Assembly (NCBI RefSeq): GCF_900108025.1
Contig: NZ_FNUS01000002.1
Span: 248,001 to 312,000 of the forward strand
Length of the DNA stretch: 64,000 nt
Source of the DNA: Halpernia humi
GTDB lineage: Bacteria; Bacteroidota; Bacteroidia; Flavobacteriales; Weeksellaceae
Reading direction: 5' to 3'
Part shown: piece by piece, positions 31,431-55,442 of the stretch
Layout of the letters: the number at the start of each line of letters is the position of its first letter
Position numbering within the stretch: position 1 is the first letter of the stretch
The notes under the pieces: generated by a model
What the model was told of the DNA's origin: nothing
Database searches by the model: none
What the model saw: only the letters and a program-made list of their open reading frames with translations
Made by a program: the position numbers and the translations under genes

Positions 31431-31550
31431 GTAACTAGCCCTGATAGAAGTGGATATCCTTTTTTTTATCGAAAAACTGGCTAATTATAAACTAAACGTT
31501 CTAAAAAAAAGATAGGAACGGATAGCAGGATTAGCTTCTAAAAAAAATCA
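31431..31550 (+). ncRNA. Flavobacterial intergenic structured RNA-like element, copy 1
   Basis: The element begins TAGCCCTGATAGAAGTGG, continues ATATCC plus a T run, and after a 40-base loop returns with an A run, GATAGGAACGGATAGCAGG and TTAGCTTCTAAAAAA. The arms align as an imperfect hairpin (TA..CCTG.TA...GT...TATC.TTTTTTT against its complement). The same skeleton with covarying stems appears at 33901-33999 and 56983-57063 on the other strand. It may belong to the Flavo-1 motif of Bacteroidota, but I could not verify this. It occupies much of the 31249-31603 gap. Confidence 0.6.
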
Positions 31551-33900: not shown

Positions 33901-33999
33901 TTTTTTAGGAGCAGCACAAGTGCGTATTTTCAGAAGATGATACCTGCTCTACATTACAATCCCGCCGCGGCGGGGATTTTCATTTCGATCAGGGCTAAA
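33901..33999 (-). ncRNA. Flavobacterial intergenic structured RNA-like element, copy 2
   Basis: Read on the minus strand: TAGCCCTGATCGAAATG, AAAATCC, a GC-rich apical hairpin CCGCCGCGGCGG, then GATTGTAATGTAGAGCAGG and, after an insertion, GCTCCTAAAAAA. The fixed positions match copy 1 while the apical stem is entirely different in sequence but still pairs, as expected of a conserved RNA fold. It lies about 100 bases upstream of the glucokinase start, on the same strand. Confidence 0.6.
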
Positions 34000-34071
34000 A
34001 GTCTGGGAATCGGTTTTTTGAAGTGAAGAAAAGTTTGTAGAAATTAGATTGAGAATTTTCTTTTTTTTTCT

Positions 34072-50586: not shown

Positions 50587-51831
50587 ATGTACTCAATTAT
50601 AGATATAGAAAGCAATGGCGCGGCTTTTCGGGAAGAACAAATCACGGAAATTGCCATTTATAAATTCGATGGTCATCAGATTTTGGATCAGTTTATTTCA
50701 ATGGTAAATCCACAAAGTGAGATTACACCTTACGTGCAGAAATTAACTGGAATTACCCAAAACATGGTGAAAACCGCACCGAAATTTCACGAAATTGCGA
50801 AAAGAATCGTAGAAATTACAGAAAATTCTACCATCGTTGGTCACAATGTAGATTTTGATTATAGAATGTTGCGCCAATCTTTTTCCGCTTTGGGTTTTGA
50901 TTTTGAACGCGAAACGATTGATACGATTCCTTTGGCGCGAAAATTAATTCCAGATGAAAAAAGTTATTCTTTGAGTAAACTTTGCAAATCTATTGGTATT
51001 CCTTTAACCGACAAACACCGCGCTGCAGGCGATGCGAGAGCAACTTTAGATTTATTTAAATTGTTGATGCTAAAAGATCAATCTGCAGAAATAATTCAAA
51101 AACAGCAAGAAGAAGCGCGCGCAAAAACGGATTCAAATAGAATTAAAATTCTATTAGAAAATTTACCGTCCAAAAAAGGTATTGTCTATTTTCAAGATGA
51201 TAAAGGCAAAATATTGTATTTGGATTTTTTCACAGATTTATACAGAATTTCAAAAAATATTTTAAACTCAAAAGCCAAAAAATGGAATGTCGTTCAGCAA
51301 CTCACATCCCAAATTCATTACGAATTGGTTGGTAATGAGGTTCTTGCAAGAATAATGATGCTCAATAAAAAAATCACAAAAGATGAACGTGCGCTTTTTG
51401 GATTATTTTACATCGAAGAAAAATATGCGATAAAAAGATTGTCGACCCAGAAAAAAATTAAACCTTTTTTAAAATTAAAAACTTTTTCACAAGCATCGAA
51501 AGTTTTGAAATATGTGCAAGATAATCCAGACTTTCAAGATGTTGAAAAATTTAAAAAAGTAATACATCTAAAAGGTCGAAATGAACTTTGGCTTTCGGAA
51601 GGCCGAACTATTGGCGAAAAATCCTTTTTAATTATTGAAAACGGCGCTTTAAAAAGTTATGGTTTTTATGAATTGCACCATCAAATAAAATCGCGAGAAA
51701 AGATAAATAAGTTAAAAATTGATGTTTCTTTTGAGCCAAAATTGGTAGAAAATTATTTAAAATTAGCACTTTTAAAAAATTATTTTGAAATCTTTCCGCT
51801 TCCAAGAGCAATTGAAATCTCTGAAGATTAA
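50587..51831 (+). CDS. DEDDh exonuclease fused to a GIY-YIG/UvrC-like region
   Basis: This 414-residue protein has an N-terminal proofreading-type exonuclease (1-165) with all DEDDh residues: Asp6, Glu8, Asp89, His144 and Asp149. The middle (about 185-270; KKGIVYFQDDKGKILYLDF...VVQQLTSQIHYELVGNEVLARIMM) resembles the GIY-YIG nuclease domain of UvrC/Cho, and the rest is an unassigned tail. Such fusions are thought to act in DNA repair. It is the second gene after the HerA-like ATPase, possibly one transcript. Confidence 0.88.
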   Translation: MYSIIDIESNGAAFREEQITEIAIYKFDGHQILDQFISMVNPQSEITPYVQKLTGITQNMVKTAPKFHEIAKRIVEITENSTIVGHNVDFDYRMLRQSFSALGFDFERETIDTIPLARKLIPDEKSYSLSKLCKSIGIPLTDKHRAAGDARATLDLFKLLMLKDQSAEIIQKQQEEARAKTDSNRIKILLENLPSKKGIVYFQDDKGKILYLDFFTDLYRISKNILNSKAKKWNVVQQLTSQIHYELVGNEVLARIMMLNKKITKDERALFGLFYIEEKYAIKRLSTQKKIKPFLKLKTFSQASKVLKYVQDNPDFQDVEKFKKVIHLKGRNELWLSEGRTIGEKSFLIIENGALKSYGFYELHHQIKSREKINKLKIDVSFEPKLVENYLKLALLKNYFEIFPLPRAIEISED

Positions 51832-51873: not shown

Positions 51874-51881
51874 TATTTTTG
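51874..51881 (+). promoter_or_regulatory. Promoter box of the lysA leader
   Basis: TATTTTTG fits TAnnTTTG exactly; TTTA at 51852-51855 lies 18 bases upstream as a weak -33 box. Transcription would begin near 51888, about 18 bases before the leader peptide ATG. Confidence 0.5.
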
Positions 51882-51905
51882 ACAAAAATTTTAAAAAACA
51901 ACAAA

Positions 51906-51983
51906 ATGAAAGTTCTTAAATCTATAAAACAATTTGCTGCAAAGGGGAAAAAGTTTTCTTCTAAAGCAATCTATGTAGATTAA
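51906..51983 (+). CDS. 25-residue lysine-rich leader peptide upstream of lysA
   Basis: ATG AAA GTT CTT AAA begins a 25-codon frame (MKVLKSIKQFAAKGKKFSS then KAIYVD) with seven lysine codons. It has its own promoter box, is followed 25 bases later by an intrinsic terminator, and lysA begins just after that. GAGCC immediately past its stop (51984-51988) can pair with GGCTC (52015-52019) in the terminator's 5' arm. This fits a ribosome-controlled attenuator; a free-standing basic mini-protein is the alternative. Confidence 0.55.
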   Translation: MKVLKSIKQFAAKGKKFSSKAIYVD

Positions 51984-52008
51984 GAGCCGATATTTTAACA
52001 ATATTTTT

Positions 52009-52041
52009 AAAGCAGGCTCATTTGTAGCCTGCTTTTTAATT
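52009..52041 (+). terminator. Terminator/attenuator before lysA
   Basis: AAAGCAGGCT (52009-52018) pairs perfectly with AGCCTGCTTT (52026-52035) around CATTTGT, then TTAATTTT. It ends 17 bases before the lysA ATG, so it must be bypassed unless lysA has a separate promoter; none is visible in the remaining gap. Confidence 0.85.
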
Positions 52042-52057
52042 TTAAAAAACAATTAAA

Positions 52058-53257
52058 ATGACTAATAAAAACCTACTTTCAATCGCGCAAGAATTTGGCA
52101 CGCCCACTTATGTTTACAATGCAGAATCTATCAAAAATCAGTATAAAAAACTGACGGATTCTTTCACTAAAAACACGCGATTTTTCTACGCTGCAAAGGC
52201 TTTAACCAATATTAATATTTTAAAATATATTAAGAGTTTGGGCGCATCTTTAGATTGCGTTTCCATTAGCGAAGTAAAGTTGGGTTTAAAGGCGGGCTTC
52301 ACTTCAGATAAAATTTTATACACGCCAAACTGTGTAGATTTTGCCGAAATTGAAGAAGCCGTTGCGCTGAAAGTGCACGTTAATATTGATAATATTTCAA
52401 TCTTAGAACAATTCGGAAATAAATACGGAAACTCTTATCCGATTTTTGTGCGTATCAATCCGCACATTTTTGCGGGCGGAAATTATCAAATTTCTACGGG
52501 ACATATTGATTCGAAGTTTGGGATTTCTATCCATCAATTAAGACACATAGAACGGCTTGTGAAATCTACAAATCTTCTTGTAGAAGGACTTCACATGCAT
52601 ACAGGAAGCGAGATAAAAGATGTGGATGTTTTTGTGCAAGGTTTAGAGATTTTATTTAATATTTCAGAAAATTTCCCAGATTTAAAATATTTGGATATGG
52701 GAAGCGGTTTTAAAGTGCCTTACAAAGACGGCGATTTGGAAACCGACGTTCAATCTTTAGGCAAAAAAGTAGAAAAAGCCTTGGCTGATTTTAATAAAGA
52801 ACAAGGAAAAAAACTTCAACTTTGGTTTGAACCGGGAAAATTTTTGGTAAGTGAAAGTGGTCATTTCATCGTGAATTCTAATGTGATAAAACCAACAACG
52901 GCCACCACTTTTGTGGGAATTAATTCTGGATTTAACCATTTAATTCGCCCAATGTTTTACGATTCTTACCACAAAATAGAAAATCTTTCTAACCCAAAAG
53001 GTGCGGAAAGAATTTACACCGTAGTCGGAAACGTCTGTGAAACCGATACTTTTGCGTGGGATAGAAAAATAAATGAAGTTCGTGAGCATGATATTTTGGT
53101 TTTCAGAAACGCCGGCGCTTATGGTTTTGAAATGAGTTCTAATTTTAATTCCCGTTTAAAACCAGCAGAAGTTTTATGGCTCGATGGAAAAGCGCATTTA
53201 ATTAGAAAGAGAGATGAGTTTGAAGATTTATTGAAAAATCAGATTGAGGTAATTTAA
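52058..53257 (+). CDS. lysA: Diaminopimelate decarboxylase
   Basis: This 399-residue PLP enzyme has the fold-III alanine-racemase-like barrel with the cofactor lysine in FYAAKAL (Lys47), HMHTGSEI for phosphate contact, DMGSGF, EPGKFLVSESG and GNVCETDTFAWDR (catalytic Cys). It decarboxylates meso-diaminopimelate to L-lysine, the last step of lysine synthesis. It is preceded by a lysine-rich leader peptide and terminator, suggesting control by lysine supply. Confidence 0.97.
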   Translation: MTNKNLLSIAQEFGTPTYVYNAESIKNQYKKLTDSFTKNTRFFYAAKALTNINILKYIKSLGASLDCVSISEVKLGLKAGFTSDKILYTPNCVDFAEIEEAVALKVHVNIDNISILEQFGNKYGNSYPIFVRINPHIFAGGNYQISTGHIDSKFGISIHQLRHIERLVKSTNLLVEGLHMHTGSEIKDVDVFVQGLEILFNISENFPDLKYLDMGSGFKVPYKDGDLETDVQSLGKKVEKALADFNKEQGKKLQLWFEPGKFLVSESGHFIVNSNVIKPTTATTFVGINSGFNHLIRPMFYDSYHKIENLSNPKGAERIYTVVGNVCETDTFAWDRKINEVREHDILVFRNAGAYGFEMSSNFNSRLKPAEVLWLDGKAHLIRKRDEFEDLLKNQIEVI

Positions 53258-53267
53258 AACCTATTTT

Positions 53268-53966
53268 ATGAAAAGAATTACTCTAATTTTCTTTCTAATT
53301 ACAGCATTTTGTAATGCGCAATTTGATGGTTTGCCGGATCGATTTATTCCTTATCAAGATGGAACACTTCAATTTTATAAAGATTTAAACACTGTTTTGG
53401 TAAAAAATAATTTTAAGTCGTGCAATAATAAGGAATCTGAAATGTTTTTGGCACATATTGAAATAGATAAGAAAAACCATGCTAAAATTATTAATTATGA
53501 TGTAAACGAATCTAATGATTGTGCTAAAGAATTGTTTGTAAAAGCTTTTAATGAAATAAATAAACTTAATAAATGGAAATATATTCCCGAATCTCACGGT
53601 AAAACTACTGTGCTATTTTATCCGATTGATTATTTCGAAAACTTCAAAGATGGTTACACCGTTAAAAGCCTTACAGAATATGCTGATTTTCCGAATGGAA
53701 TTGGAGATTTTAAGAAAGAATTTATTGATAATTTTTTAAAAATTCAAAAAAAATTCAAAAAAAATATTAAATATGAAATTTCTTTCAAAATTGATAAGGA
53801 AGGAAATATGTTCAACATTACAGCAAATTCAGAAAATATAGATTCAGAAATTCAAAAAAACATTATTATTGCATTAAAACAAATTAAAACTAAATGGAGT
53901 CCAGAAAAATTTAGAGGACATCCTATTATTTCTAATTTTAGAATGCCATTTGTGATTTCTGAATAA
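53268..53966 (+). CDS. Secreted tandem paralogue 1, TonB-C-like
   Basis: This 232-residue protein has a signal peptide (1-17, FCNAQ). The N-terminal half holds a conserved DGTLQFYKDLNTVL...CNNKESE pattern and the C-terminal half (about 145-230) resembles the TonB C-terminal domain (FKIDKEGNMFNITANSENIDSEIQKNIIIALKQIKTKWSPEKFRGHPIISNFRMPFVI). No transmembrane anchor or proline-rich region is present, so it is not a classical TonB. It begins a three-gene tandem array after lysA. Confidence 0.75.
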   Translation: MKRITLIFFLITAFCNAQFDGLPDRFIPYQDGTLQFYKDLNTVLVKNNFKSCNNKESEMFLAHIEIDKKNHAKIINYDVNESNDCAKELFVKAFNEINKLNKWKYIPESHGKTTVLFYPIDYFENFKDGYTVKSLTEYADFPNGIGDFKKEFIDNFLKIQKKFKKNIKYEISFKIDKEGNMFNITANSENIDSEIQKNIIIALKQIKTKWSPEKFRGHPIISNFRMPFVISE

Positions 53967-53981
53967 TACAATAAAAAACAA

Positions 53982-54701
53982 ATGAAAAAAATCTCTGCAC
54001 TATTTTTTATTTTTATTTCAATTCTAAGTTTTTCACAAGATGTTTTAGAAAAATACCCTGAAGGACAAGACGCTTATAACGGCGGCGTTTTGCAATTATA
54101 TAAAGAGATTAATCAAATTTTAATAGCCAAAAACCTAAAGCCGTGCGAAAACAAAAGTGAATATTATGCCTTGCATGTTTTGGTTTTTCCAGATAATTCT
54201 ATCAAATATGTGAAGGATGAAAACCCCGATAATGCCACAAAAAATAAGTGCTCTTTTGATTTGGCTAGAGAAGTTGCAAAATACCTTCATGGTTGGCAAG
54301 CCGCGACTGTAGATCATAAAAAAGTAATTGCTCAAACAAGTTATTATATCATTCCATCGCAACTTTTTGGCAATTATACAGAAGGTTATTATCCATTTCG
54401 CGATTTTACGGAAGCGTCTTACGAAGGCGGAATGAATAAATTTAGAAAAAAAGTTTTTCAAAATATCGATTTGTCTCGGTTTACATTTGATGGCACTTTT
54501 AGATTAGTTGTCACTTTCACGGTAGAAGCAGATGGAAAAATGAGTAATGTTTTACTGGCAGAGTCTTCCGGCTTACAAGAATTTGATGATATGGTCATTA
54601 AATCTATAAAATCCATCCGAAATAAATGGACGCCAGCAAAATCTCAAGACGTACCAATTGCTTCAAAATTTCGCTTGCCATTAGTTTTTCAAACGAATTA
54701 A
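53982..54701 (+). CDS. Secreted tandem paralogue 2, TonB-C-like
   Basis: This 239-residue protein has a signal peptide (1-18, LSFSQ) and the same two-part plan: YNGGVLQLYKEINQILIAKNLKPCEN, then a TonB-C-like domain (FTVEADGKMSNVLLAESSGLQEFDDMVIKSIKSIRNKWTPAKSQDVPIASKFRLPLVF), the clearest of the three. Single conserved Cys pairs in the first half could form a disulfide. It is a periplasmic protein of unknown role, 15 bases after paralogue 1. Confidence 0.78.
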   Translation: MKKISALFFIFISILSFSQDVLEKYPEGQDAYNGGVLQLYKEINQILIAKNLKPCENKSEYYALHVLVFPDNSIKYVKDENPDNATKNKCSFDLAREVAKYLHGWQAATVDHKKVIAQTSYYIIPSQLFGNYTEGYYPFRDFTEASYEGGMNKFRKKVFQNIDLSRFTFDGTFRLVVTFTVEADGKMSNVLLAESSGLQEFDDMVIKSIKSIRNKWTPAKSQDVPIASKFRLPLVFQTN

Positions 54702-54710
54702 ATTTACCCG

Positions 54711-55442
54711 ATGAAAAAAAAATATTTTTTATTCCTTTTTTTGCCATTTTTGTTTAATGCCCAGATTTTAGACAAATATCCTTACAAAAAAGATTTCTAC
54801 CAAGGCGGAATTTCTAAATTATACAGCGACATACACCAAATAATTTTAGATAAAAAAATTGAAAAATGTGCTAATCCAAAAGAAATTTATCAGTTAAAAT
54901 TGCTTCTAACAAAAGAAGGCACTATAAAATTGGTGAAAGATTTTGATACGGCAAATATTGCAGCAAACCAATGTGCTTATAATTTATCGAGAACTTTGGC
55001 TATAAATTTAAAAGATAAAAAATGGAATCCCGCAGTTGTAAAAAACCAGAAATTCGCTTCCATAGTAGAATTAATTATCTTTCCCGATGATTTGTTTGAT
55101 AACTTTCGGCGCGGTTACAAACCGTATCAATTTTACACGCCTGCAAAATTTAAAGGCGGCGAAGAAAAAGGATCACAAGAATTTCATGATACCTTCCAAA
55201 GTTTATTTGTAGATTATGATTTAACAGGCCGCTTTTATCTGGATTTTTATATTGATAAAGATGGCGAAATTGTTTCGCCAAGTTTACAACCCGAAGTTGC
55301 TAACCAAAATTTTAAAAATGAAGTGTTTAGAACTTTGAAAAGACTCAACCATAAATGGATTCCGGCAACATTTCAGGGTGTTCCTATAAAATCTAAAATT
55401 TCTATTCCACTCGGTTTTTCTACAACTTACTATGAAAAATAA
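54711..55442 (+). CDS. Secreted tandem paralogue 3, TonB-C-like
   Basis: This 243-residue protein has a signal peptide (1-18, FNAQ), FYQGGISKLYSDIHQIILDKKIEKCAN and a degenerate TonB-C-like end (FYIDKDGEIVSPSLQPEVANQNFKNEVFRTLKRLNHKWIPATFQGVPIKSKISIPLGF). The three products are alike in length and layout but well diverged, so the duplication is old. It is separated from paralogue 2 by 9 bases; the three are probably co-transcribed. Confidence 0.75.
   Translation: MKKKYFLFLFLPFLFNAQILDKYPYKKDFYQGGISKLYSDIHQIILDKKIEKCANPKEIYQLKLLLTKEGTIKLVKDFDTANIAANQCAYNLSRTLAINLKDKKWNPAVVKNQKFASIVELIIFPDDLFDNFRRGYKPYQFYTPAKFKGGEEKGSQEFHDTFQSLFVDYDLTGRFYLDFYIDKDGEIVSPSLQPEVANQNFKNEVFRTLKRLNHKWIPATFQGVPIKSKISIPLGFSTTYYEK

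Follow-up and report, generated by a model that had tools for sequence, protein, structure and literature searches.

Sensing of amino acid supply through a ribosome that stalls in a leader ORF is well known for amino acids other than lysine. The classical trp, his, phe, leu, ilv and thr attenuators share a general layout, in which a promoter of their own is followed by an ORF in which codons for the operon's product abound, the stop codon of the ORF lies beside region 2, a 2:3 pairing competes with the 3:4 pairing, and a biosynthetic gene follows. The lysine (L-box) riboswitch also provides RNA-level control of lysine genes, and has a mode that acts by termination. Leader-peptide attenuators are treated in passages of PMC1183508 and PMC1262725, and passages of the latter name attenuators for His, Thr and Phe and with the L-box riboswitch for lysine.

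Attenuation by a stalling ribosome has been little studied in the phylum Bacteroidota. Flavobacterium psychrophilum belongs to the same bacterial order as the carriers of the leader described here. 'Strong clues' for leader-peptide attenuation before amino-acid operons were reported in this species, and structured 5' elements of pheA and hisG were named, lysA not being among the genes named in the section on these elements (PMC9723704). Leader-like sORFs are mentioned for Bacteroides in a passage of PMC7366714, and a passage of PMC10117765 describes a Sinorhizobium sORF that precedes an aspartate dehydrogenase gene and contains six codons for Thr and three for Lys. The word lysine is absent from the main text of PMC2965389, and the passages of PMC6386406, PMC4046918 and PMC4132733 in which 'lysine codons' occur concern other matters. 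The mechanism is known, and a form of it specific for lysine was not found in the limited literature searched, that is, among the matches listed, where subscription papers are little covered.

We analyzed a 64,000-nucleotide stretch of the genome of Halpernia humi (the window), in which a putative attenuator precedes lysA (Table 1). LysA converts meso-diaminopimelate to lysine. The gene scored 367.9 bits against TIGR01048 (cut-off 297.9), and Halpernia frigidisoli is the nearest named relative by LysA, with 91% identity. The original prediction, made from the window alone, proposed a lysine-rich leader peptide with its own promoter box, a perfect 10-bp terminator just before lysA, and an antiterminator formed by GAGCC and GGCTC. 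All of these parts were present at the locus and recurred in relatives, as described below. The leader peptide, MKVLKSIKQFAAKGKKFSSKAIYVD, is 25 residues long, starts at the ATG at 51906, ends at the TAA at 51981-51983, and carries Lys at positions 2, 5, 8, 13, 15, 16 and 20. The terminator reads AAAGCAGGCT-CATTTGT-AGCCTGCTTT, with a perfect 10-bp stem followed by a T-rich stretch, and is separated from the lysA start by 22 nt. Directly 3' of lysA, three similar-looking consecutive ORFs of 232, 239 and 243 aa occupy positions 53268-55442, and an NCBIfam scan of the first of them gave no match.

Table 1. Coordinates of the features of the lysA leader and its neighbours in the window.
Feature	Position	Strand	Basis
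Exonuclease-like gene upstream of the leader	50587-51831		
-10 promoter box TATTTTTG, flavobacterial TAnnTTTG type	51874-51881	+	read from the sequence
Leader ORF of 25 codons, seven of them Lys, followed by TAA	51906-51983	+	sequence; intact in 63/63 full-length relatives
Region 1 GTTCTTAAATCTAT, predicted protector partner of 51973-51987 in untranslated RNA	51912-51925	+	MFE fold
Inner hairpin within the ORF, codons K13 to S19, Lys codons flanking	51943-51962	+	alignment conservation, recoding test
Region 2, GAGCC, immediately 3' of the stop codon	51984-51988	+	sequence; pairs with region 3
Intrinsic terminator (regions 3 and 4), stem 52009-52035 plus T-rich tail	52009-52041	+	terminator scan
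Region 3, GGCTC, in the terminator 5' arm	52015-52019	+	sequence
lysA, diaminopimelate decarboxylase, 399 aa	52058-53257	+	TIGR01048 above cut-off

We searched 199 genomes, of which 149 contained a LysA match, and compared the regions upstream of lysA from 90 of these, including that of the window. The element was picked by eye in 30 of the 90 regions and then confirmed by a covariance model (R1) built from the same 30; the remaining 60 were without it. All 30 contained a Lys-rich ORF, a segment adjoining the stop codon that was able to pair with the terminator 5' arm, and a terminator. Across the family, R1 matched 208 of 320 genomes at E up to 0.1 and 193 at E below 1e-9, with strong matches spanning 8 of the 33 genera. 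Across the order, 45 of 395 genomes matched at E up to 0.01, and 44 of these belonged to the same family, the single match outside it (G434) being weak (E 0.006). One strong match was found in the window's own genome. A second (L123, E 0.015) was rejected as a similar terminator behind another gene, and five more were weaker (E 0.87-10). Upstream of seven lysA genes from other families and ten of the family's own more distant LysA genes, no similar leader was seen by eye or by the model.

Among 80 named LysA neighbours, the R1 element was located directly upstream of lysA in 64, which belonged to Chryseobacterium, Epilithonimonas, Kaistella and Halpernia or were MAGs. The 16 without it included Riemerella, Amniculibacterium, Kaistella pullorum and some Chryseobacterium. 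One of the 64 was cut by a contig end, leaving 63 full-length leaders that represent 29 distinct peptides, many of them closely related, such that counts over the 63 are not independent; 16 of the 63 carry a leader identical to one used in building R1. At the 30 loci with the best R1 matches, 21 of which came from genomes outside model building, a LysA-like ORF of 399-400 aa began 78-83 nt past the leader stop in every case. Upstream of lysA in another genome (G044, locus L071), a terminator like that of the attenuator, GGCAGGCTC..GATCCTGC, was present behind a TATTTTTG box, with no leader ORF seen; it is possibly a remnant of an attenuator.

The sequence TAnnTTTG, which we take to be the -10 consensus of flavobacteria, marks TATTTTTG as the promoter box of the window leader. 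Of the 30 leaders, 29 had an equivalent box 27-37 nt 5' of the ORF start, and in the thirtieth (L038), whose start was taken at a TTG lying too early, a TACTTTTG box is also present upstream. The window shows no evident -33 TTG at the customary distance; the arrangement TTG-N20-TAnnTTTG is present in copies such as L020 and L045. A promoter suggested by a sigma-70 scan, TTGACA-17-CAAAAT (51879-51907), was dropped because its -10 element overlaps the leader start codon. Since the gap between the terminator and lysA contains no TAnnTTTG box, a lysA transcript starting 3' of the terminator is unlikely.

Comparison across related genomes showed that the leader ORF, its Lys codons, the antiterminator and the terminator are all kept. 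An ORF starting with ATG, of 23 or 25 codons and with 5-8 Lys, was intact in 63 of 63 full-length copies, and both other reading frames were closed by stops in all 63. In the 30 leaders used for model building, the ORF comprised 23-31 codons with 5-9 Lys and began with ATG in 29 and with TTG in L038; gaps between the ATG and the inner hairpin in the 30-row alignment were of 3 or 6 nt only. Lys accounted for 24.6% of codons (379/1539) across 65 different leaders, an incomplete set from which 24 of 110 loci were left out, at least 7 of them with full model matches, as compared to 9.8% in seven window genes, an enrichment of 2.5 times. In some Chryseobacterium, Lys is displaced from codon 8 to codon 7 (FKQNKTG, FKQKQTG) with its number unchanged. 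Conservation of the peptide as such is a weak line of support and is not strict; codon 16 encodes K in 28 of 49 leaders and R in 21, the third-position share of differences was modest (5409/11298 in 23-codon and 955/2549 in 25-codon leaders), and the ratio of nonsynonymous to synonymous codon differences was about 2:1 and 3.8:1, respectively.

The choice of Lys codon also distinguished the leaders, with AAG making up 184 of their 379 Lys codons as against 22 of 247 in the window genes. In a set of 36 leaders it made up 104 of 208, and in the lysA genes that follow them 262 of 1259. The codons on either side of the inner hairpin were almost always AAG in 23-codon leaders, and the enrichment arises in part because this hairpin forces AAG. 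ARAGORN called 33 of 35 tRNA matches in the window's own genome, and the two tRNA-Lys genes among these 33 both have the anticodon UUU.

The inner hairpin starts inside a Lys codon (AAG GG) and reaches the codon that precedes the last Lys (TCT AAG), and AAGGG and TTCTCTAAG were nearly invariant in the 30-row alignment. Its stability in the window was equalled by none of 300 synonymous recodings. Overall, 0-22 of 300 recodings were equal in all 22 representatives scored, out of 25 (L018, L045 and L050 were left out). The hairpin seems, from these comparisons, to be kept at the RNA level. That it acts as a pause or timing element is a guess; a pause motif (Y-1 G+1) was present 12 nt past the hairpin in 31 of 63 leaders, and another offset fitted 49 of 63.

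We then considered the structures predicted to compete downstream of the ORF. A terminator scan of the window gave 4 terminator-like sites against 2.2 expected in shuffles, which is weak evidence on its own. The whole window leader folded with a z score of -4.2, 1 of 200 shuffles being as good. The RNAalifold consensus comprised the terminator and the hairpin inside the ORF, and changes on both sides with the pair kept were found at 6 of 14 consensus pairs, including pairs of the terminator stem. Region 2 is complementary to region 3, and when the spacer was dinucleotide-shuffled 300 times, 8 of the shuffles equalled the 2:3 duplex of the window. The sequences forming this duplex varied by lineage; the window has GAGCC/GGCTC, other lineages have GAGCT/AGCTC or GAGT/ACTC, and L050 has GGTCT/AGACT. 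All 25 representatives had an antiterminator better than the average of their 300 shuffles, and it ranked in the best 10% in 12 of them. Region 2 preferred its own region 3 over the partners of other species, with an equal fit in 132 of 20000 permutations.

In the MFE fold of the free window leader, codons 3-7 paired with the segment comprising the stop codon and GAGC. This protector pairing (1:2) was equalled by 17 of 300 shuffles in the window and ranked among the best 10% for just 8 of the 25 representatives, suggesting that it is clear in the window and not general across relatives. The untranslated leader was predicted to prefer the antiterminator in 24 of the 30 leaders.

Next, we modelled a ribosome at every codon of each of the 30 leaders by masking its footprint, and determined whether 2:3 forms before region 4 is made; the model is thermodynamic and the footprint is assumed. 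With the ribosome at the stop codon, 2:3 was retained at 0-0.37 of its maximum in all 30 leaders (0.29-0.37 in six of them), in line with the original prediction that a ribosome finishing the peptide would cover GAGCC. The companion claim, that a ribosome stalled at Lys codons leaves GAGCC free, was supported as well. When only RNA downstream of the ribosome could fold, 169 of 176 Lys codons left 2:3 at half of its maximum or more, but when RNA behind the ribosome was allowed to pair forward, the antiterminator was lost at 33 of the 176, with K13, K15, K16 and K20 of the window among those that failed under this stricter assumption. In every leader but L054, whose K28 is beyond the switch point, the last Lys codon precedes this point (29 of 30). 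In L047 and L054 a 31-codon ORF runs through region 2, which is still covered by the ribosome at the stop. Within the model, the geometry of the leader is that of amino-acid attenuation, and the excess of Lys codons, the intrinsic terminator, the mutually exclusive antiterminator and, as judged by the footprint model, the placement of the codons are those of a ribosome-mediated attenuator. Conservation, pairings and the footprint model taken together support the predicted logic of amino-acid attenuation before a lysine-synthesis gene.

Could the same features have arisen in other ways? The terminator may mark the end of the upstream exonuclease-like gene, with a small ORF present by chance and lysA having its own promoter. 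Of the 63 named loci with a leader, 62 have an exonuclease homologue upstream in the same orientation, pointing to an old linkage. However, the end of the exonuclease BLAST match falls anywhere from ~70 to ~1030 nt before the leader (12 loci) whereas the distance from leader to lysA is fixed, relatives keep a promoter box, the ORF and region 2 in the interval that separates the exonuclease gene from lysA, and the gap of just 22 nt before lysA is without TAnnTTTG. The exonuclease gene is also kept in 12 of 16 named loci without the element, and the element is therefore no fixture of the gene end. We consider this explanation very improbable. The RNA could otherwise be a riboswitch for lysine or another metabolite, the inner hairpin being part of the aptamer and the ORF incidental. 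The nearly invariant AAGGG and TTCTCTAAG count for a riboswitch, as does an inner hairpin that beats most synonymous recodings in 22 of 22 cases scored and in which some pairs show changes on both sides. Against this stand an ORF intact in 63 of 63 leaders with the other frames closed, gaps of 3 or 6 nt, and the 2.5-fold enrichment of Lys, and no Rfam family, the lysine riboswitch included, reached its gathering score. The lysine riboswitch and the T-box, which we take to be RF00168 and RF00230, gave no match at gathering score in the window, and neither appeared at E up to 10 between 51600 and 52300, where weak matches of other families were all below gathering score. There is, in our estimate, very little chance that the RNA is a riboswitch.

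The peptide itself may matter, as an arrest peptide or as a sensor of a general slowing of translation and not of lysine. Chryseobacterium and Epilithonimonas show good conservation of its C-terminal half, KKG..(K/R)FSKVWN, as would suit such a role, but the residues that are conserved are for the most part those encoded by the inner hairpin. Kaistella and others have another tail (AIYVD, ENIGV, GISVA) and retain the pairings and a high number of Lys, and the gene served is specific for lysine. We view this as the least probable of the explanations considered.

We therefore favour the reading, with a probability of roughly 0.86, that the element ties lysA to the availability of charged tRNA-Lys by ribosome-mediated attenuation of transcription. 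The transcript would start just past the TATTTTTG box, and a ribosome would trail RNA polymerase through the leader ORF. With ample lysine, the ribosome would quickly reach the stop codon and cover GAGCC, and the terminator (3:4) would halt transcription before lysA. With Lys-tRNA scarce, the ribosome would stall at a Lys codon and leave region 2 free for region 3, and the 2:3 pairing would prevent the terminator from forming, so that lysA would be made. We infer that these pairings form in the cell and that the ribosome stalls in this manner, and the sequence suggests lysine as the signal to which lysA responds. Judging from the pathway, switching lysA alone would spare the diaminopimelate needed by the cell wall, and such an attenuator would provide a simple switch at the step that separates protein synthesis from cell-wall synthesis.

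Leaders of this kind may not be confined to lysA in this genome. A His leader, MKTLKVLFHHHHLI, containing HHHH, is present upstream of hisG (L239, contig C10). The segment AGACG after its stop codon matches, by complementarity, a CGTCT in the terminator 5' arm (terminator ACCGTCTGAACAAGACGGT), and by its sequence this leader reads as a textbook his attenuator. It shares with the lysA leader the order of an ORF, a segment after the stop that pairs with the terminator arm, a terminator and the gene, and differs in having four consecutive His codons and no sequence similar by eye. A Thr/Ile-rich ORF, MAVKQNIREIQITIYLGITISTECTATFITP, lies before an aspartokinase in an 830-aa open frame (L244:1306-1405, contig C2), with its stop codon in the loop of a short GC hairpin, CCCCTTAAGGGG, and is a candidate thr/ile leader. 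Since the same genome has the His leader and the Thr/Ile-rich ORF, the organism appears to use such control repeatedly. Upstream of pheA, ilvD and a second aspartokinase of this genome, no leader was seen. Among other RNAs, two matches to Flavo-1 RNA (RF01705) were found in the window at 31433-31536 (+) and 33936-34000 (-); the function of this RNA is left open in the relevant section of PMC9723704.

An attenuator of this type would add lysine to the amino acids sensed through a ribosome stalling in a leader ORF, and would mean that charged tRNA can serve as the readout of lysine supply, a task done by a riboswitch in other bacteria. The covariance model R1 provides a marker for the element (193 of 320 family genomes). 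It is conceivable, though we hold this only tentatively and think it rather unlikely, that the leaders represent the first class of lysine-specific ribosome-mediated attenuators, which would take over the role of the lysine riboswitch in the Chryseobacterium group at the step past diaminopimelate, and in which the hairpin between two AAG-rich clusters of Lys codons would time the polymerase or the ribosome and sharpen the response. The L-box binds lysine directly, and the lysA leader has no match to it. As compared to the classical attenuators, the lysA leader has lysine as its amino acid and lysA as its target, and it has an additional conserved hairpin within the ORF and a Bacteroidota promoter. 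Its protector pairing seems not to be a general feature, and in the window this pairing resembles that of trp.
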